Source: Micrococcales bacterium
GTDB taxonomy: Bacteria > Actinomycetota > Actinomycetes > Actinomycetales > Cellulomonadaceae
Length of the DNA: 39,257 nucleotides
Assembly (NCBI GenBank): GCA_009779195.1
Contig: WRET01000030.1
Coordinates: 1-39,257 of the forward strand
Reading direction: 5' to 3'
Shown: piece by piece, positions 1-39,257 of the stretch
Numbering within the stretch: the stretch's first letter is position 1
Layout of the letters: the number at the start of each line of letters is the position of its first letter
Translations under genes and position numbers: made by a program
Notes under the pieces: generated by a model
The model's input: only the letters and a program-made list of their open reading frames with translations
Database searches by the model: none
Told to the model about the DNA's origin: nothing

Positions 1-123
1 AAGCCCCAGGGCGACCACAAGGCCAAGGACGGCAAGCCCCAGGGCGACCACAAGGCCAAGGACGGCAAGCCCCAGGGCGACCACAAGGCCAAGGACGGGA
101 AGCCTCAGGGCGACCACAAGGCC
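1..123 (+). repeat. 33-bp tandem coding repeats in the surface protein gene
   Basis: Three almost identical 33-bp units (1-33, 34-66, 67-99) and a partial fourth (100-123) encode the KPQGDHKAKDG repeat. A separate 39-bp unit is duplicated exactly downstream at 127-165 and 166-204. Such near-identical repeats allow unit number to change by slippage. The array starts at the window edge, so its full length cannot be judged. Confidence 0.85.
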
Positions 124-519
124 CAGGGTGACCACAAGGCCAAGAACGACAAGAAGGCCGCCAAGGGTGACCACAAGGCCAAGAACGACAAGAAGGCCGC
201 CAAGTGCGACCCCAAGGCCAAGAAGGGCGACCACAAGGCCAACTGCGACCCCAAGAAGGCCAAGAAGGCCGAGAAGTGCGACCCCAAGGCTAAGAAGGGT
301 GACCACAAGGCCAAGAAGGGCGACAAGGCCAAGAAGTGCGCCACCAAGGCTCACAAGGGTGACAAGCCCGAGGCCGCTGCTGCCAAGGCAGAGCCCAAGG
401 CTGAAGCCACTCTGGCCGCCACCGGCGCCAAGGCTGGCCTCGTGGCCCTCCTCGCGCTGACCCTGGCACTGGCCGGGACCGCAGCCGTCGTGGTCCGCCG
501 CCGGTTCGCAACCCGCTGA
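1..519 (+). CDS. Cell-wall surface protein with Lys/His-rich repeats and LAATG sorting signal (3' part)
   Basis: The frame is open from the window edge, so the N-terminus, presumably with a signal peptide, is missing; 172 residues are visible. The first 40 residues are 11-residue repeats of the KPQGDHKAKDG type. Further Lys/Ala/His/Gly/Asp repeats follow (GDHKAKNDKKAAK, KCDPKAKKG), with five cysteines in the later part, giving a strongly basic, low-complexity chain. The C-terminus is a classic sorting signal: LAATG at 412-426, a hydrophobic stretch (GLVALLALTLALAG), then VRRRFATR. LAxTG is the form recognised by class E sortases of actinobacteria, so wall anchoring is well supported. The function of the basic repeats is unknown. 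A strong terminator follows. The protein at the other end of the window also ends in LAxTG but is acidic and Cys-rich. Confidence 0.85.
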   Translation, partial: KPQGDHKAKDGKPQGDHKAKDGKPQGDHKAKDGKPQGDHKAQGDHKAKNDKKAAKGDHKAKNDKKAAKCDPKAKKGDHKANCDPKKAKKAEKCDPKAKKGDHKAKKGDKAKKCATKAHKGDKPEAAAAKAEPKAEATLAATGAKAGLVALLALTLALAGTAAVVVRRRFATR

Positions 520-3305: not shown

Positions 3306-6300
3306 GTGACCATGCGGACGGAGGTGGGGCCGGTGTCTGCGTGGCGACCAGTCGTCAATGCCGCCGTGCAGGGCGTAGCAGCGTTCGGGGGTGCTGCGGC
3401 AACCGCCATCACCGGCGACCTGGCGATCGGAACACAAGTCGGGCTCGGCATCGCTGCTACGACTGCTGCCGTCGGGGCGCTCGGTGAAGACGCAGTAGAC
3501 AAGGTCTTCATCCCCAAGAAGCGCGACGAGATCTCCCAGCAGGTCGACGCAGCCATGGCCGCCCGGTTCCCTGGGAGCAGCCGCAAACAGCTCAGTCCAG
3601 GCAGAGACCTGGCCCGCACGGTCCTGGAGAAGCACCACCTGACGTTGGAAGAGTGGGCAGCACTGGACTGCGACCCCACCCGGTCAGCCCAGGCTGTCCT
3701 CGCACATGCCCTCGCCGCAACGTTCGCCAATTTCGACGACCACCCAGCCTCCTATGTGGCCCACGCTGGTATCGAAGAGACCTACCGTGCGATGGCAGCC
3801 CACGAGATGTCGTTGGGACCTGCGGTCCGCGAGGCCCTGGTCCGCCTGCGGCGTATCCAAGGTGTCCTCGTGAACCACGCGACCGTGGTGGAGCGCCACC
3901 TCGACGACCACGCAGACCGCCTGCAGCGCCTCCAGACAGGTATTGAAGGCGTCCAGCGCAGCGCCGACGACCAGGCAGCCATCCTGCGAACCGCCCTTTC
4001 CTACCGACCTCCGGACGAACCTCCAGCTGCGGTGGTGTGCGGTGGTCCACCCCAGCCAGCGGTGGCTTTCCAGGACCGCACCGAGGCCGAGTCCGCCATT
4101 GACGCAGCCTGGGCTGCCGACGCCCGTACTGTCGTGCTCACCCAGGTGGTACGCGGCGACGGCGGTGTCGGCAAATCTCAGCTGGCCAGCAAGTACTTTG
4201 ACGCTTCGTCCGCCCCTGTGCGGGTATGGGTAGAGGCATCCACCGACGACGCGCTGGTCTCCGGTTACGCCCAAGCAGCAATCGCCCTAGCCGAAGCCCG
4301 CCACCTGCCCCCTGGCTTTGCCCACGAGTGGCGTGAGAACACCCGCGCCGCTGCCCAGGCGTTCTGGCAGTGGTTGCACACCACCGGCATCCAGTGGTTC
4401 CTGGTGCTCGACGATCTCAACGTCCCCGCCGCAGCCCTGAACGACTGGTGGCCACAGGGCGTCGGCCGCACCCTGGTCACCACCCGCTTGGCCGACCACG
4501 CCTACGACGACTACTTCACCAACCTTGTCCCGTTGGATGTCTTTTCCCCCACCCAGGCCGAGGGTTATCTCACCGAACGCCTGGCCAAACTGCCACCCGC
4601 CCACCTGGTCGGAGCCGCTGACTTAGCCGCTGCCCTCGGCCACCACCCGCTTGCCCTGTCCCTGGCCACCGCGCTCATCCTCGGCCAAGGACGCACCATC
4701 ACCGAGTACCTGACCCTGTTTCGTGAGGTCCCCCTGCCCAAGGCTCTGCCTGGCCGCGACCGCAGCGGAGTCGACGACGTCATCACCAGGACCTGGTTGC
4801 TGAGCATCAAACGCGCCGCCAAGGTCTACCGGCAAAGAGGGGGTCGCGAAGGTCGGTCAGGTCAACCCGTCCGGGCCCTAGCCAACCTCATCGCTTTCGG
4901 CCACCCCACCCAGACCCCCCGCTGCCTGTACTTCACCAAAGCCGCCCGCACCTACCTCGCCCACGCAGCCACTCCCGACGCCCCACCCCTGTCGCCCAAC
5001 GAGACCTGGGAAGCCCTGGCCGTCCTAGCCGACTTTTCCCTCATCACCTGCCCCAACGACGACTGGTCCCCCGTCCCTGTCCACGCCCTCGCCCAACGCA
5101 CCATCCGCGAACTCCTGGACGACGACCATCACACCGCAGCCGCCCAGGCTCTCGCCGACGCGATCGAGGAAGCCTGGCCCGAGATTGACACGAAATCCCA
5201 CGTCTTGGCGACGTCTTCAACCACCAGCGGCACGCAGACCATAACCTCCGGCGCCATCCTGCGTTCCGTCGCCCAAGAACTTCTCCGCATCGCCGAACCA
5301 GCCCTCATCACCCCCACAGGAGTCCACCGCGTCGTTATCCACATCTCCGACTCCCTGGAGGAGGCAGGCCGAGCAGCCGAGGCCGTGGCCTACAGCGAGC
5401 ACCTGCTCTCCCGCCTAGGTGCGCTTGATCCCGACCACCATGACGTCTTGACTGTCCGCGCCAACCTCGCCAGCTGCCGCGGCTGCTCCGGCAATGTCAC
5501 CCAGTCCCTCATCGAATACCAACACCTTCTTCCCAACCAAGAGCGGGCTCTGGGCGACGACCACCCCGACACCCTGACCACCCGGGCCAACATCGCCAGA
5601 TGGCGCGGCACGTCCGGCGACACCACCAGCGCTCTGACCGCACTCGAAAACCTCCTCACCGACCAGATACGCGTCGTAGGCGACGACCACCCCGACACCC
5701 TGACCACCCGGGCCAACATCGCCAGGTGGCGAGACGTGTCAGGCGACACCACCGGCGCCCTGACTGCCTACGAAGACCTCCTGACCGACCAGGTAGGCGT
5801 CGTAGGCGACGACCACCCCGGCACTCTGGCCACCCGGGCCAACATCGCGAACTTGCGAGGCCAGTCCGGCGACACCACCGGCGCTCCGACCGCACTCGAA
5901 AACCTCCTCACCGACCAGGTACGCGTCGTAGGCGACGACCACCCCGGCACTCTGGCCACCCGGCGCAACATCGCGAACTTGCGAGGCCAGTCCGGCGACA
6001 CCACCGGCGCTCTGACCGCACTCGAAAACCTCCTCACCGACCGGGTGCGCGTCCTGGGCGCCGACCACCCCGACACCCTGACCACCCGGCAGGACATCGC
6101 CTGGTGGAGAGGCCAGTCCGGCGACACCACCGGCGCCCTGACCGCACTCGAAAACCTCCTCACCGACCAGATACGAGTCCTGGGCGCCGACCACCCCGAC
6201 ACCCTGACCACCCGGCGCGACATCGCCAGGTGCCGACGCCAGTCCGGCGACACCACCGGCGCCCTGACCGCACTCGAAAACCTCCTCACCGACCAGATAC

Positions 6301-6854
6301 GAGTCCTGGGCGACGACCACCGTCACACCCTGGCCACCCGACACACGATTGCTAACGTGCGAGGCGAGCTCGGTGAAATTGCCGGCGCCCTGGCCGCCCT
6401 CGAAAACCTCCTGCCCGACCGGGTGCGCGTCCTGGGCGACGACCACCCCGGCACTCTGATCACCCGGGCCTGCATCGCCTGGTGGAGGGGCGAGTGCGGC
6501 GACACCACCGGTGCCCTGACGGCCCTCGAAAACCTTCTGACCCACCAAGTACGGGTCCTGGGAACCGACCACCCCCACACCCTGATGACCCGGCACAACA
6601 TCGCCTACTGGAGAGGCGAGTCCGGCGACACCACCGGCGCCCGGACCGCACTCGAAGACCTCCTGCGCCACCAGGTGCGCGTCCTGGGCGCCGACCACCC
6701 CGACACTGTGCGCACCCGGAACGACATCGTCCATTGGAAGGCGAAGGCTGGGCGTCATTCCAACGACATGAACAGCCTGGAGGGTCTTGGCGAACTGCGG
6801 GAAGACTGCCCGACTGAGGATGACCGGGGTGGAGACGTCGGATCGGTGGCCTGA
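3306..6854 (+). CDS. STAND-type NTPase with C-terminal tetratricopeptide repeats
   Basis: The 1182-residue product has three parts. Residues about 10-60 are Gly/Ala-rich with small-residue spacing (AAFGGAAATAITGD, GLGIAATTAAVGALG), resembling glycine-zipper membrane segments; a helical region follows to about 235. The central NTPase has a P-loop GDGGVGKSQLA (about 283-293), a Walker B-like WFLVLDDLN (about 364-372) and a sensor-like RTLVTTR, as in NB-ARC/STAND proteins. From about residue 749 come ten 42-residue repeats of the form LGDDHPDTLTTRANIA...GDTTGALTALENLLTDQ, typical of kinesin-light-chain TPRs. STAND proteins act as ligand-triggered oligomeric switches, and many bacterial ones are antiphage sensors; that role is inferred. 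Start is GTG 3306 or ATG 3312. No partner gene is adjacent. Confidence 0.85.
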   Translation: MTMRTEVGPVSAWRPVVNAAVQGVAAFGGAAATAITGDLAIGTQVGLGIAATTAAVGALGEDAVDKVFIPKKRDEISQQVDAAMAARFPGSSRKQLSPGRDLARTVLEKHHLTLEEWAALDCDPTRSAQAVLAHALAATFANFDDHPASYVAHAGIEETYRAMAAHEMSLGPAVREALVRLRRIQGVLVNHATVVERHLDDHADRLQRLQTGIEGVQRSADDQAAILRTALSYRPPDEPPAAVVCGGPPQPAVAFQDRTEAESAIDAAWAADARTVVLTQVVRGDGGVGKSQLASKYFDASSAPVRVWVEASTDDALVSGYAQAAIALAEARHLPPGFAHEWRENTRAAAQAFWQWLHTTGIQWFLVLDDLNVPAAALNDWWPQGVGRTLVTTRLADHAYDDYFTNLVPLDVFSPTQAEGYLTERLAKLPPAHLVGAADLAAALGHHPLALSLATALILGQGRTITEYLTLFREVPLPKALPGRDRSGVDDVITRTWLLSIKRAAKVYRQRGGREGRSGQPVRALANLIAFGHPTQTPRCLYFTKAARTYLAHAATPDAPPLSPNETWEALAVLADFSLITCPNDDWSPVPVHALAQRTIRELLDDDHHTAAAQALADAIEEAWPEIDTKSHVLATSSTTSGTQTITSGAILRSVAQELLRIAEPALITPTGVHRVVIHISDSLEEAGRAAEAVAYSEHLLSRLGALDPDHHDVLTVRANLASCRGCSGNVTQSLIEYQHLLPNQERALGDDHPDTLTTRANIARWRGTSGDTTSALTALENLLTDQIRVVGDDHPDTLTTRANIARWRDVSGDTTGALTAYEDLLTDQVGVVGDDHPGTLATRANIANLRGQSGDTTGAPTALENLLTDQVRVVGDDHPGTLATRRNIANLRGQSGDTTGALTALENLLTDRVRVLGADHPDTLTTRQDIAWWRGQSGDTTGALTALENLLTDQIRVLGADHPDTLTTRRDIARCRRQSGDTTGALTALENLLTDQIRVLGDDHRHTLATRHTIANVRGELGEIAGALAALENLLPDRVRVLGDDHPGTLITRACIAWWRGECGDTTGALTALENLLTHQVRVLGTDHPHTLMTRHNIAYWRGESGDTTGARTALEDLLRHQVRVLGADHPDTVRTRNDIVHWKAKAGRHSNDMNSLEGLGELREDCPTEDDRGGDVGSVA
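5550..6805 (+). repeat. 126-bp tandem repeats encoding the TPR array
   Basis: Ten consecutive 126-bp (42-codon) units encode the TPR sensor region. Middle units (about 5800-6310) are nearly identical at DNA level, while the last units diverge, especially the eighth and the final one, which loses the GDTTGAL core. This pattern points to recent expansion or homogenisation of the middle units. Confidence 0.9.
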
Positions 6855-35170: not shown

Positions 35171-37918
35171 ATGAGCCAGCCACCGGAGGGGTCGTCGACC
35201 CCACGGCACGCTGGCGCACCCCAGCCGACCGAGGGTGTCACATACTCCCCCGGCAAGACGCCCACGGTGCCCCCCGTGGCCACGCCCACCACACCACCAA
35301 CGTCGGGGGACCCACAGGCCTCACCTCGACCCCCGCCTGCCCAGATGGCGGCTCCACCACCGGTTTCGCCCCAACCCTCACGTGTGCGACCACCGGCACA
35401 GCTGGCTGGCCCACCGCCACGCGATCCTTCACCACCACCGGTAGCACCTGAGGTCCTGCCGTTACTCCCGCCACCCCCGCCTGCCCCAGCGGCGACACCG
35501 GCCTCTGCGCCGGAACCAGAACCTTCCATCCCCGTCCCACCAGCGCCTGAGCCTCGCTACGGCGCAAGCTGGTGGATCCGGGCCGGGAAGGGAGCCTCGT
35601 CACCAGCTCCGGAACCGGCCATCACGACACCGGCCGAACCTGCACCCAACCCTCCGTGCGCGCCAGCACCCGACGCCGCAGCGCCCGACCCTCCGTCCTC
35701 CCCGCCTGGCGGACCTGACCCGACGGTCGTCATGGAGCGTCCTTCCCGCACGCCCCGACCGTCCGAACCCGCGTCCGAGGCCACAGCCGACCCTCCGCCA
35801 CCCGAACCCGCGTCCGAGGCCACGGCCGAACCTCCAGCACCCACACACGAACCAACACCCGAACCAGAACCCACCCCCCCTCCACTGCCTCCACCAACGC
35901 CTGAGCCTCCTGTTCTCTCCGTGGCGAGCGTGACCCAGTGGATCCAGACCAAGACGGCCACAACCCTGGCCGGACCAACACCAGCACCCGAACCAACACC
36001 AGCACCCGAACCGACGGCCGAGACCACAGCCGAACCTCTGCCACCCGAACCCGCGTCCGGGGCCACAGCCGAGCCTCCGCCAGCACCCACACACGAACCA
36101 GAACCCGAACCAGAACCCACCCCCCCTCCACTGCCTCCACCAACGCCTGAGCCCCCTGTTCTCTCCGTGGCGAGCGTGACCCAGTGGATCCAGACCAAGA
36201 CGGCCACAACCCTAGCCGGACCAACACCAGCACCCGAACCGACGGCCGACGCCACAGCACCCGGCCCTCCGCCCCCACCTGGCGGACCTGACCCCACGGT
36301 CGTCCTGGAGCGTCCCCGCACGCCCCCACTGCCCGACCCAGAGCCGGAGCCAGCACCTGCACCTTCGCCCGCGCAGGCACCCGGCGCCACAGCACCCGAC
36401 CCTTCGCCCACCCCGCCCCACGGACCTGACCCCACGGTCGTCATGGAGCGCCGTCCCCGCACGCCGCGACCGGCCAAACCAGCACCCGTACCCCCGCCCG
36501 CGCCCGGCCCAGCACCGACGCCCGACGCAAGAACACCTCGCCCTTCGCCTACCCCGCCCCACGGACCTGACCCCACGGTCGTCGTGGAGCGTCGTCCCCG
36601 CACGCCGCGACCGCAGGCTCCCCCACCGGTCGCGAGGCCGCAGCCAGCGCGTGCGCCAACGCGCTACCGCTCACCCACGCCGGCGTCCGAGCTGGCACGG
36701 CGCGTCCATGCCTCGGCGTCCAGGCACCAGTCCGACGTCCCGCTCCAGGTGATCCCGCCTGCCCAACAGGTGGCACCGCCTGAAGGTCCGCAGCGCATGG
36801 CCAGGCCCGGGACACCCCTCACAGCGGCACCCCACGTCGTCGAACCTGTGTCGCCCACCGCAGCGGTGAAGAGCGTCGCCGGGGCTGTGACACCCATCAC
36901 CGGGGTCGAGCGCGTCGCGGAGTACGTGACACCGACCTCCGGCAACCCGGTGGTGCCACCGCCCGCGCCCCAGACTGCGCCGCCGCAGCCTGTGCCGACC
37001 CATCCGGCACCCTCAGCCCCGCCCATGGCACCGCACCCCATGCACGACCGGTTGCGGCTCGTCGCTGCGGGCCTGGTCGCGTGTCTCATACTCGTCGGGA
37101 CGGGGATCGTCGTGGCGAAGCAGTTCGTCCACCCCGGCGACGACCAGCAAGCCACCCACACGCCTGCGTCGACCACGAACCCTGTGGTTCTGCCTGAGCC
37201 ACCTGCCAACTGCGCGGCCGTCGCCTGCGTCGCCTTGACGTTCGACGACGGTCCGGGCCCCTACACCGCCGACCTGCTCGACGTCCTCGACGAGAAGAAC
37301 GCCAAGGCGACGTTCTTCGTCCTGGGGTCGAGGGCGAGCAGGAACCGCGACCTGTTGGCCCGGACGGCGGCCTCAGGGCACGCGATCGGCAACCACTCGT
37401 GGTCCCACAAGGACCTGACCAAGATCAGCCGGGACACGATCGACGACGAGCTCGACCGCACCACGGCGGCGATCGTGCAGGTCACGGGCGCGGACCCTGT
37501 CCTCATGCGTCCTCCGTACGGGACGTTGAGCGACTCGGTGCGCGCCGCCGCCGGTGATCACGGCACAGCCCTGGTGCTGTGGGACGTCGACACCGAAGAC
37601 TGGAAGAACCGCGACCCGCAGATCACCACGCAACGTGCGCTGGAGGCCACCGACGGGTCGATCATCTTGATGCACGACATCCACGAGTCGACGCTCGTGG
37701 CCATGCCGGGCATCATCGACGGCCTCCGTGCCGCGGGGTTCACGCTGGTCACCGTGCCTGAGCTGCTCGAGACGCTCAACCCTGGACAGGTGTACTGGAA
37801 CCGGTCGGACGAGGTCGGGTCCACCCAGCCGTACGACGCGTCTGACCCGGCTGACGAGCAGGTCTGCTGGGCACCGCTTCCCGACTCGACACCGCCCGAG
37901 CCGGGTCGCGAACCGTGA
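35171..37918 (+). CDS. Membrane-anchored polysaccharide deacetylase with long proline-rich cytoplasmic region
   Basis: The 915-residue protein has three parts. Residues about 1-620 are Pro-rich and low complexity, with recurring GPDPTVVMER-type motifs (four copies) and two copies of VLSVASVTQWIQTKTATTLA. One transmembrane helix follows (about 630-652, LVAAGLVACLILVGTGIVVA). The extracellular part is a NodB-type carbohydrate esterase 4 domain: TFDDGPGPYTADLLDVL (catalytic Asp and metal Asp), GHAIGNHSWSHKDL (metal His pair), RPPYGTLS, DVDTEDWKN and ILMHDIHEST. Such enzymes N-deacetylate peptidoglycan or similar wall glycans. ATG 35171 has GAGGTCACC upstream. The size and the N-terminal region are unusual for the family; the inside part may be a phosphorylation or scaffold region. 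Confidence 0.88.
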   Translation: MSQPPEGSSTPRHAGAPQPTEGVTYSPGKTPTVPPVATPTTPPTSGDPQASPRPPPAQMAAPPPVSPQPSRVRPPAQLAGPPPRDPSPPPVAPEVLPLLPPPPPAPAATPASAPEPEPSIPVPPAPEPRYGASWWIRAGKGASSPAPEPAITTPAEPAPNPPCAPAPDAAAPDPPSSPPGGPDPTVVMERPSRTPRPSEPASEATADPPPPEPASEATAEPPAPTHEPTPEPEPTPPPLPPPTPEPPVLSVASVTQWIQTKTATTLAGPTPAPEPTPAPEPTAETTAEPLPPEPASGATAEPPPAPTHEPEPEPEPTPPPLPPPTPEPPVLSVASVTQWIQTKTATTLAGPTPAPEPTADATAPGPPPPPGGPDPTVVLERPRTPPLPDPEPEPAPAPSPAQAPGATAPDPSPTPPHGPDPTVVMERRPRTPRPAKPAPVPPPAPGPAPTPDARTPRPSPTPPHGPDPTVVVERRPRTPRPQAPPPVARPQPARAPTRYRSPTPASELARRVHASASRHQSDVPLQVIPPAQQVAPPEGPQRMARPGTPLTAAPHVVEPVSPTAAVKSVAGAVTPITGVERVAEYVTPTSGNPVVPPPAPQTAPPQPVPTHPAPSAPPMAPHPMHDRLRLVAAGLVACLILVGTGIVVAKQFVHPGDDQQATHTPASTTNPVVLPEPPANCAAVACVALTFDDGPGPYTADLLDVLDEKNAKATFFVLGSRASRNRDLLARTAASGHAIGNHSWSHKDLTKISRDTIDDELDRTTAAIVQVTGADPVLMRPPYGTLSDSVRAAAGDHGTALVLWDVDTEDWKNRDPQITTQRALEATDGSIILMHDIHESTLVAMPGIIDGLRAAGFTLVTVPELLETLNPGQVYWNRSDEVGSTQPYDASDPADEQVCWAPLPDSTPPEPGREP
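35862..36243 (+). repeat. Duplicated segment inside the deacetylase proline-rich region
   Basis: Two near-identical stretches lie 246 bp (82 codons) apart; for example TGTTCTCTCCGTGGCGAGCG occurs at 35911 and 36157. Each encodes PPVLSVASVTQWIQTKTATT, the least Pro-like part of the region, which suggests a duplicated functional segment rather than random low complexity. Confidence 0.8.
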
Positions 37919-38100: not shown

Positions 38101-38664
38101 GTGTCCGCCCAGTCGCGGCACATCAGCGTCCGAACCGCTGGAGGCTTGAGGAACATGATGCACACGTCCACCGTCGTGGCTGGTGCGGTCCACCAGCTCG
38201 GCGAGATCCTTCGCCCACGTCTGCGTGTGCAGAGCACTGGCGTGCGCGACGTGAGCGTCGTGGTGCTCGACGACCGGTGGGCGGTCACCGTCGACCGCGG
38301 TCCGGCCTCTGACCTGCTGGTGACCCAGTGGGAGCGGACCATCGCCGAAGGCTCCGACGGCCAGCGCTGGTCCACCCCCGGCTACCAGACCCTCGCCTTC
38401 GCCAAGACTGGCGAGCTTCCCCCGCGCACCTGGCAACGTGTCGCCTCCGTCGCCCGGACCGAGAACGCTGGTGTGGCTGTGCGGGCCGTGGTCAACGCCA
38501 TCCGCAGCTGTGCGACCGTCGCCCCCAGCTGGCGTTTCGCCTGCGACGCCGCCCACACCTGGGAGCTGACCGCCGGCCAGCCCATCCCCGCGTCGTGCCC
38601 TTCGTGCGGCTCAGGCCGGATCGTCCACGCCGAGCAGGTACAAGCCACGACGGCCGAGACGTAA
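38101..38664 (+). CDS. Uncharacterised protein with C-terminal zinc-ribbon-like cysteines
   Basis: I do not recognise this 187-residue protein. The middle (VSVVVLDDRWAVTVDRGPAS, then LLVTQWERTIAEG) looks like a small alpha/beta domain. The C-terminus has FACDAAHTWEL and later ASCPSCGSGRIVH, a C-x3-H plus C-x2-C spacing that could bind zinc. There is no signal peptide or transmembrane helix. The start is GTG 38101 with GAGGTC upstream; ATG 38156 or 38159 could be the real start, because the first 18 residues look unstructured. The gene's end is shared with a convergent terminator. Confidence 0.7.
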   Translation: MSAQSRHISVRTAGGLRNMMHTSTVVAGAVHQLGEILRPRLRVQSTGVRDVSVVVLDDRWAVTVDRGPASDLLVTQWERTIAEGSDGQRWSTPGYQTLAFAKTGELPPRTWQRVASVARTENAGVAVRAVVNAIRSCATVAPSWRFACDAAHTWELTAGQPIPASCPSCGSGRIVHAEQVQATTAET

Positions 38665-38693: not shown

Positions 38694-39257
38694 TCAGCGA
38701 GCCCGGCTGACCTGTACCCGACGCCAAGCAACCAGCGTCAAGACGAGCCCCAGCACCGCGAGCGTGCCGCCCATACCTGCCAGCATCGCGCTGTCGCTGC
38801 CGGTCGAGGCCAGCGAGTGCGGCCGGGCCGCTGTCCGCGGACCTCGATGGGCAGGGCCCCGTCCAGAAGGTCCGCTGACCAGCGGCGGTTTGAACAACGG
38901 CGGTTCGACCGACGGCGGACCGTTGCACGGGTCACCTGGACCGCACGGGTCGTTCCCGCAGGTCCAGTCGCACGGGGGGTCGTCGCAAGTCTTGCAGTCG
39001 TCGCAAGTCTTGCAGTCGTCGCACTTGTCGCAGTCGTCGCACTGCTCACAGTCGTCGCACTCATCGCAGTTCTCGCACTGCTCACAGTCGTCGCACTCAT
39101 CGCAGTTCTCGCACTGCTCACAGTCGTCGCACTGCTCACAGTTCTCGCACTGCTCACAGTCCTCGCACTCATCACAGTTCTCGCACTGCTCACAGTCCTC
39201 GCACTCATCACAGTTCTCGCACTGCTCACAGTCCTCGCACTCATCACAGTTCTCGCA
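38694..39257 (-). CDS. Cell-wall protein with poly-(Cys-X-X) acidic repeats and LASTG sorting signal (C-terminal part)
   Basis: The frame is open to the window edge; 187 residues are visible. It starts with 31 consecutive Cys-X-X triplets (38979-39257), mostly CEN CDE CED CEQ, so every third residue is Cys and almost all others are Asp, Glu, Asn or Gln. Then come CDWTCGNDPCGPGDPC, a Pro-rich linker, and a sorting signal: LASTG (38799-38813), the hydrophobic segment MGGTLAVLGLVLTLVAW, and the basic tail RRVQVSRAR. LAxTG is the class E sortase form in actinobacteria, so it should be anchored on the outside of the wall. Function is unknown; metal binding or disulfide cross-linking are possibilities. 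I know of no named family for this repeat. Confidence 0.85.
   Translation of the reverse strand, partial: CENCDECEDCEQCENCDECEDCEQCENCDECEDCEQCENCEQCDDCEQCENCDECDDCEQCENCDECDDCEQCDDCDKCDDCKTCDDCKTCDDPPCDWTCGNDPCGPGDPCNGPPSVEPPLFKPPLVSGPSGRGPAHRGPRTAARPHSLASTGSDSAMLAGMGGTLAVLGLVLTLVAWRRVQVSRAR
38979..39257 (-). repeat. 9-bp/36-bp tandem repeat encoding (CXX)n
   Basis: 31 in-frame 9-bp units form a higher-order 36-bp (12-residue CENCDECEDCEQ) repeat that is most regular toward the window edge and degenerates into CDD/CKT triplets at the 3' end of the gene. The array continues beyond the window. Confidence 0.9.

Follow-up and report, generated by a model that had tools for sequence, protein, structure and literature searches.

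A regular cysteine repeat at the end of a contig

The window, by which we mean the whole stretch of 39,257 nucleotides that was analyzed, is the entire contig C30 of a Micrococcales bacterium assembly (125 contigs, 3.33 Mb; genome 98% complete). On the minus strand, a reading frame is open from the contig end at 39257 to a TGA stop codon at 38694-38696. This feature (38694-39257) encodes the C-terminal 187 residues of a predicted surface protein that also carries a VWA domain and whose N-terminal part would lie on a second contig, C91 (see below). Since the window is the whole of C30, it is the assembly that breaks off at 39257, within the repeat. Residues 1-93 of the C-terminal part (38979-39257, minus strand) consist of 31 uninterrupted C-X-X (CXX) units, encoded by a 36-bp tandem repeat whose unit translates as CENCDECEDCEQ. 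The run is acidic, 44 of its 62 X residues being D or E and 3 being K, and it contains 31 of the 35 cysteines of the 187-residue part (TGC, 21 codons; TGT, 10). A Pro/Gly-rich linker with four further cysteines (PPCDWTCGNDPCGPGDPCNG...; 38814-38978, minus strand) leads from the repeat to the sorting signal. On the same strand, the latter comprises a class E-type LASTG motif (residues 149-153, 38799-38813), a hydrophobic stretch delimited by eye (residues 157-178, 38724-38789) and the basic tail RRVQVSRAR (38697-38723). All three elements of a wall-anchoring C-terminus, L(A/P)XTG, hydrophobic stretch and basic tail, are present, with the NCBIfam model TIGR01167 scoring just below its cut-off (14.3 against 15.9 bits). 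A first-pass annotation of this DNA had proposed both an acidic chain with Cys at every third position and an LAxTG wall-sorting signal, and both proposals hold, the former with its frame confirmed.

No family of Pfam or NCBIfam matched the repeat above cut-off, and assignment to a known Cys-rich family was rejected on this basis. No metallothionein family of Pfam matched, the sole entry being Extensin_1 (E 0.023, below cut-off), and TIGR04201, the Cys-rich repeat of TraA, was absent from the NCBIfam matches at E up to 10. A sequence search of the PDB returned nothing significant (best E 0.072; the insect thermal hysteresis protein 1ezg at E 0.16), Foldseek returned no structural relative (best E 1.1) and a plasmid collection gave no match. 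The single-sequence AlphaFold2 model of this part has residues 165-185 in a helix (block pLDDT 59, 74, 58), and block pLDDT ranges from 52 to 69 over residues 1-90 of the repeat; neither this model nor that of the head (mean pLDDT 34.2) is trustworthy.

A candidate N-terminal half on contig C91

When the same genome was searched at the DNA level, seven matches were obtained: the window itself, the terminal 151 bases of C91 (95% identity, E 5e-63) and five with E values of 0.1 to 1, one of which is also on C91. The ORF at that contig end (locus L010, 7115-9175, plus strand) is 687 amino acids long from its first listed start and runs off the contig in the CXX frame. Its N-terminus has a signal-peptide-like stretch (KYRTAVASAVAALVLVWGSGVAAHADD, judged by eye), such as had been expected upstream of the repeat when only the C-terminal part had been seen. 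A VWA domain follows at residues 297-469 (PF00092, 30.6 bits; cut-off 23.8), then a weak, below cut-off match to a prealbumin-like domain (SpaA_4), then TVVNTELPPDPCADCPCSCEECKCDEC and finally the repeat, with 19 cysteines in register.

The ends of C91 and C30 share an exact 122-bp overlap that preserves the frame; exact overlaps of 14, 50 and 86 bases also exist and differ from it by shifts of the 36-bp register. Joined in the simplest way, the two parts make up 647 + 187 = 834 amino acids with 36 consecutive CXX units. Both values are minima, because assembly collapses any repeat that exceeds the overlap in length, and the join of what are two contigs rather than one is the simplest solution on the basis of that overlap. 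The resulting architecture is a signal-peptide-like start, a VWA domain, a weak prealbumin-like match, at least 36 CXX units, the Pro/Gly linker and LASTG. The joined sequence thus predicts that the CXX repeat forms the stalk of a surface protein with a length of at least about 830 amino acids. The idea of a free-standing surface polymer, put forward in the first-pass annotation, was abandoned given the VWA head supplied by C91.

An orthologue in a termite-gut genome

An orthologue was found at locus L104 (WRCL01000005.1) of Micrococcales bacterium Lab288P3bin128, a metagenome-assembled genome (MAG) that is 67% complete. According to PMC7024585, Lab288 designates the soil-feeding termite Labiotermes labralis and P3 a hindgut compartment. 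The two heads are 68% identical, and PF00092 scores 19.4 in the orthologue, below the cut-off of 23.8. This ORF also runs off its contig within the repeat, and the remainder is on contig 8 of the same MAG, where the C-terminus reads CTTCDDCTDPPSPP...LASTG followed by a hydrophobic stretch and a basic tail; the two contigs share a 78-base in-frame overlap. The orthologue has at least 41 CXX units (26 + 15), with X residues that differ from those of the window.

The neighborhood downstream of the gene is conserved. Contig 8 and the window have four neighboring genes in common, in the same order and orientation and with 70.6-89.8% identity: a TetR gene, an ABC ATPase gene, an ORF without a Pfam match and a convergent ORF of 187 amino acids, also without a Pfam match (38101-38664, plus strand). 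The last of these is 80.9% identical over 162 amino acids and adjoins the CXX gene in the termite MAG. Between the last two common neighbors the window encodes a polysaccharide deacetylase (35171-37918, plus strand), for which contig 8 gave no match. On the upstream side, no gene common to C91 and the MAG contig was detected at the thresholds used.

Comparison of the repeats indicates which positions are kept. The two genomes contain 19 distinct 9-bp units, of which 3 are common to both, and positions 1 and 2 of the Cys codon are the sole invariant positions among them. The third Cys codon position is C in 15 units and T in 4, and all X positions vary, N and Q being common in the window genome and T and G in the MAG. 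Conservation of the cysteines, a point raised by the first-pass annotation, is thus observed in this relative. We attach no probability to this constraint, because repeat homogenization makes the units non-independent.

The cysteine repeat is in the coding frame

Since the DNA is a 36-bp tandem repeat, the issue is its coding frame rather than chance. When 38979-39257 is read in all six frames, 15 stop codons fall in one of them and four alternatives to the CXX frame are open, while no frame in either genome has more than one consecutive GXX. The CXX frame is fixed by three observations: the VWA ORF of C91 reads into the repeat in frame, the frame leads into the sorting signal and there is no GXX alternative. 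The presence of a Cys at every third residue of the coding frame is therefore confirmed.

The absence of a GXX alternative matters when other CXX runs are considered. Surveys with repeat-type queries produced 36 other loci, at 29 distinct places, with a run of at least six CXX. None of the 36 had an L(A/P)X(T/S)G signal after the run within the fetched stretch, only two had D or E at half or more of their X positions, and 28 (21 of the 29 places) overlapped a run of at least six GXX in another frame. Most of these runs are probably misread 9-bp GXX repeats, and the window's run is not of that kind; a misread collagen-like repeat was rejected here, the frame being fixed at both ends with no GXX alternative. 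That the repeat codes for something else in another frame or on the other strand, as the fate of those 28 loci and the four open frames might suggest, is highly improbable, since in two genomes the CXX frame connects VWA on its upstream side with LASTG on its downstream side and neither genome offers a GXX alternative. The long CXX runs found in the GC-rich actinobacterial genomes surveyed (loci L047-L096 and L203-L233) thus mostly overlap off-frame GXX, and can mislead ORF-based searches aimed at Cys-rich proteins.

A CXX run is rare among the related VWA proteins inspected

An alignment of 11 VWA relatives was used to scan the genome contigs of 84,980 species. A relative is encoded at 161 loci, of which the best 80 were kept. 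Only one of these best 80 of 161 loci, the termite-gut orthologue, has a run of five or more CXX units; the other 79 have at most two consecutive units, with the qualification that 20 of the 80 ORFs (the orthologue included) run off the fetched stretch, their C-terminal ends lying outside the view. Within the alignment, the window organism's head is 63% identical to that of a termite MAG, Emb289 (G047), and 36-44% identical to the nine other rows. D155, S157 and S159 are invariant in all 11 rows and form a DxSxS motif, which we take to be that of the VWA metal site. Also invariant are four head cysteines (C146, C338, C426 and C462), as would be expected if the family makes disulfides. The protein shares with the LPXTG/LAXTG wall-anchored VWA proteins of Actinomycetota the VWA domain with DxSxS and the conserved region that follows it, and with many of them a sorting signal; it differs from them in its CXX run.

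In a tree built from 18 heads, two of them from the window genome and the others from 16 of the 80 loci, the window protein is sister to the termite-MAG orthologue (99/96). The next branches are the Emb289 protein, which lacks CXX (96/92), and then a Xylanimonas relative (100/100), which has no CXX in the 780 residues after the head, though the contig end cuts this ORF. On the simplest reading of this tree, the CXX stalk would have had one origin, before the two species split. The second head of the window genome belongs to a paralogue on contig C22 (L034, 1687-5724, minus strand) of 1346 amino acids with LPYTG and no CXX run; in the same tree it groups as a pair with an Emb289 gene.

The segment that links the last folded domain to the anchor, and that by its position in these sequences is the presumptive stalk, varies in the relatives. 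In one of them (G065) the same domain is directly followed by (DDPTEEPTE..)n and LPRTG, and in Emb289 a short linker is followed by LASTG. Elsewhere the segment is often Pro/Thr-rich, and in many relatives further domains come first.

Anchored CXX repeats were then sought at wider scales. They are present in 2 of the 81 genomes of the genus, those of the window and of the termite MAG. No further case was seen among the loci inspected in the family (221 genomes; 30 matched, 25 of 37 rows with a locus), the order (396 genomes; 27 matched, 25 of 38 rows with a locus) or the phylum (396 genomes; 18 matched, 29 of 29 rows with a locus). As a positive control, genome searches with the repeat-type query recovered the orthologue's repeat (E 2.2e-10 and 1.0e-9). 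A scan for the repeat only, in the contigs of the 84,980 species, produced 10 pattern stretches, none confirmed by tblastn, and is weak because it missed the true orthologue; the same scan of viral contigs, likewise weak, produced one stretch, which tblastn did not confirm. Among the papers listed from the open-licence PMC literature, none describes a surface protein with a CXX stalk, as judged by titles and the beginnings of abstracts.

Sortase and oxidative-folding genes

The genome contains two matches to the sortase family PF04203. The one on contig C33 is of class E by NCBIfam (185.3 bits; cut-off 160), so the class E sortase that the first-pass annotation had suggested looking for is encoded. 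LAXTG is given as the class E sortase signal in PMC5148588. The other match, on C6, is best with class F and is below every class cut-off. Neither of the two is a class C pilus sortase, in a genome that is 98% complete, and the possibility that the protein is a pilus subunit was rejected for this reason.

Genes for disulfide formation are also present: a VKOR on C49 (114.1 bits) and four Thioredoxin_4 (DsbA-like) matches on C2. In Actinomyces oris, MdbA and VKOR are reported to catalyze oxidative protein folding and to be required for pilus assembly (PMC5478893). Since VKOR and DsbA-like proteins are encoded, oxidized cysteines are the default expectation.

Possible functions of the stalk

The most likely reading, to which we give about an even chance, is that the repeat is the disulfide-stapled stalk of a wall-anchored VWA adhesin; it is preferred because export and VKOR favor oxidation. 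The protein would be exported by Sec, its cysteines would be oxidized by the DsbA/MdbA-like proteins and VKOR, and the class E sortase would couple it to peptidoglycan. The acidic CXX run would take the place of the Pro/Thr/Asp low-complexity stalk of a relative, and near-neighbor (i, i+3) disulfides could turn it into a stiff, protease-resistant spacer that would hold the VWA head outward to bind a surface. However, mis-pairing could occur among at least 36 equal and evenly spaced thiols, and this speaks against a single, defined pattern of disulfides.

Typical features of metal sites include CXXC pairs and an acidic environment. The main rival, which we regard as rather unlikely, takes up these features together with the density of cysteines (31 of 93 residues): a reduced stalk would bind Zn, Cu(I) or Cd at the wall, with Asp and Glu attracting the cations, and would act with the VWA head as a metal sponge or sensor. 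Against it, the repeat is outside the membrane of a cell encoding VKOR and DsbA-like proteins, so that oxidation is expected; moreover, no metallothionein family of Pfam matches, and no metal gene was recognized among the neighboring ORFs scanned, which are part of those of the window. At about one third Cys, the run does resemble mammalian metallothioneins, for which PMC10334657 gives about 30%, but it differs from them in being long and regular and in being sorted to the wall.

In an extended PPII chain, cysteines at i and i+3 are too distant for intrachain bonds, and a period of three sets them on one face of a chain with three residues per turn. This geometry would suit disulfides between molecules, or to other surface or host proteins, in a cross-linked coat or a redox buffer. 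We consider such a role improbable; neither of the two sortase matches is of class C. About as improbable is a near-neutral, low-complexity spacer, for which any soluble acidic repeat would suffice, the cysteines having spread by tandem duplication with no function of their own. The varied low-complexity stalks of the homologues would fit this, as would an array of identical copies that arose recently by 36-bp expansion; yet two genomes with differing units keep a Cys at every third residue over at least 36 and at least 41 units while X1, X2 and the third Cys codon position vary, a point that homogenization weakens.

Returning to the disulfide-stapled stalk, its closest parallels are of two kinds. 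The nearest in function is TraA of Myxococcus, which, in the account of PMC3325183, combines a PA14 head, Cys-rich repeats that might, as its authors suggest, be a rigid stalk and a C-terminal sorting tag, and so resembles the present protein in having a ligand-type head, a Cys-rich stalk and such a tag. It differs, as described there, in that its repeat (TIGR04201) has three invariant cysteines and no CXX run and its MYXO-CTERM tag is not a sortase signal. The nearest in position are the SD-repeat stalks of the Clf/Sdr adhesins, also an acidic low-complexity repeat between head and LPXTG; that of ClfB, made of Ser-Asp dipeptides, is described in PMC3531522 as flexible. Our searches found no sequence link of the CXX protein to TraA or ClfB. 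We know of no Cys ladder in the SD-repeat stalks.

It is possible, though we put it forward tentatively, that the protein represents a new type of wall-anchored stalk: a (CXX)n rod with at least 36 cysteines, in which the three-residue spacing of thiols is the sole visible constraint, forming either an i,i+3 disulfide ladder or a one-dimensional thiolate-metal array and having arisen a single time in a lineage related to Cellulomonas, one member of which is a termite-gut species. If the cysteines are paired, this would be a genetically encoded rod with a disulfide site at every three-residue step, and a simple model for MdbA/VKOR-type oxidative folding at extreme Cys content and for rigid wall spacers. 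If the thiols are free instead, the stalk would be a naturally occurring thiol or metal polymer of tunable length at the cell surface.

Other repeats in the window

The opposite contig end also carries the C-terminus of a sortase-type protein cut within a tandem repeat (1-519, plus strand). This repeat is K/D/H-rich, (KPQGDHKAKDG)n, and is followed by KGDHKAKNDKKAAK, four cysteines, LAATG, a hydrophobic stretch and RRRFATR; a basic stalk and the acidic CXX stalk thus occur in the same genome. Three 54-bp direct repeats (96% match) lie at 744-906, and a 1182-residue TPR protein (3306-6854, plus strand) contains, at 5550-6706, a tandem array of roughly nine units of 126 bp (83% matches). In the polysaccharide deacetylase mentioned above, the PF01522 domain follows an extensive Pro-rich N-terminal region and what looks by eye like one membrane segment; the gene also contains a 246-bp direct repeat in two copies with a 93% match.
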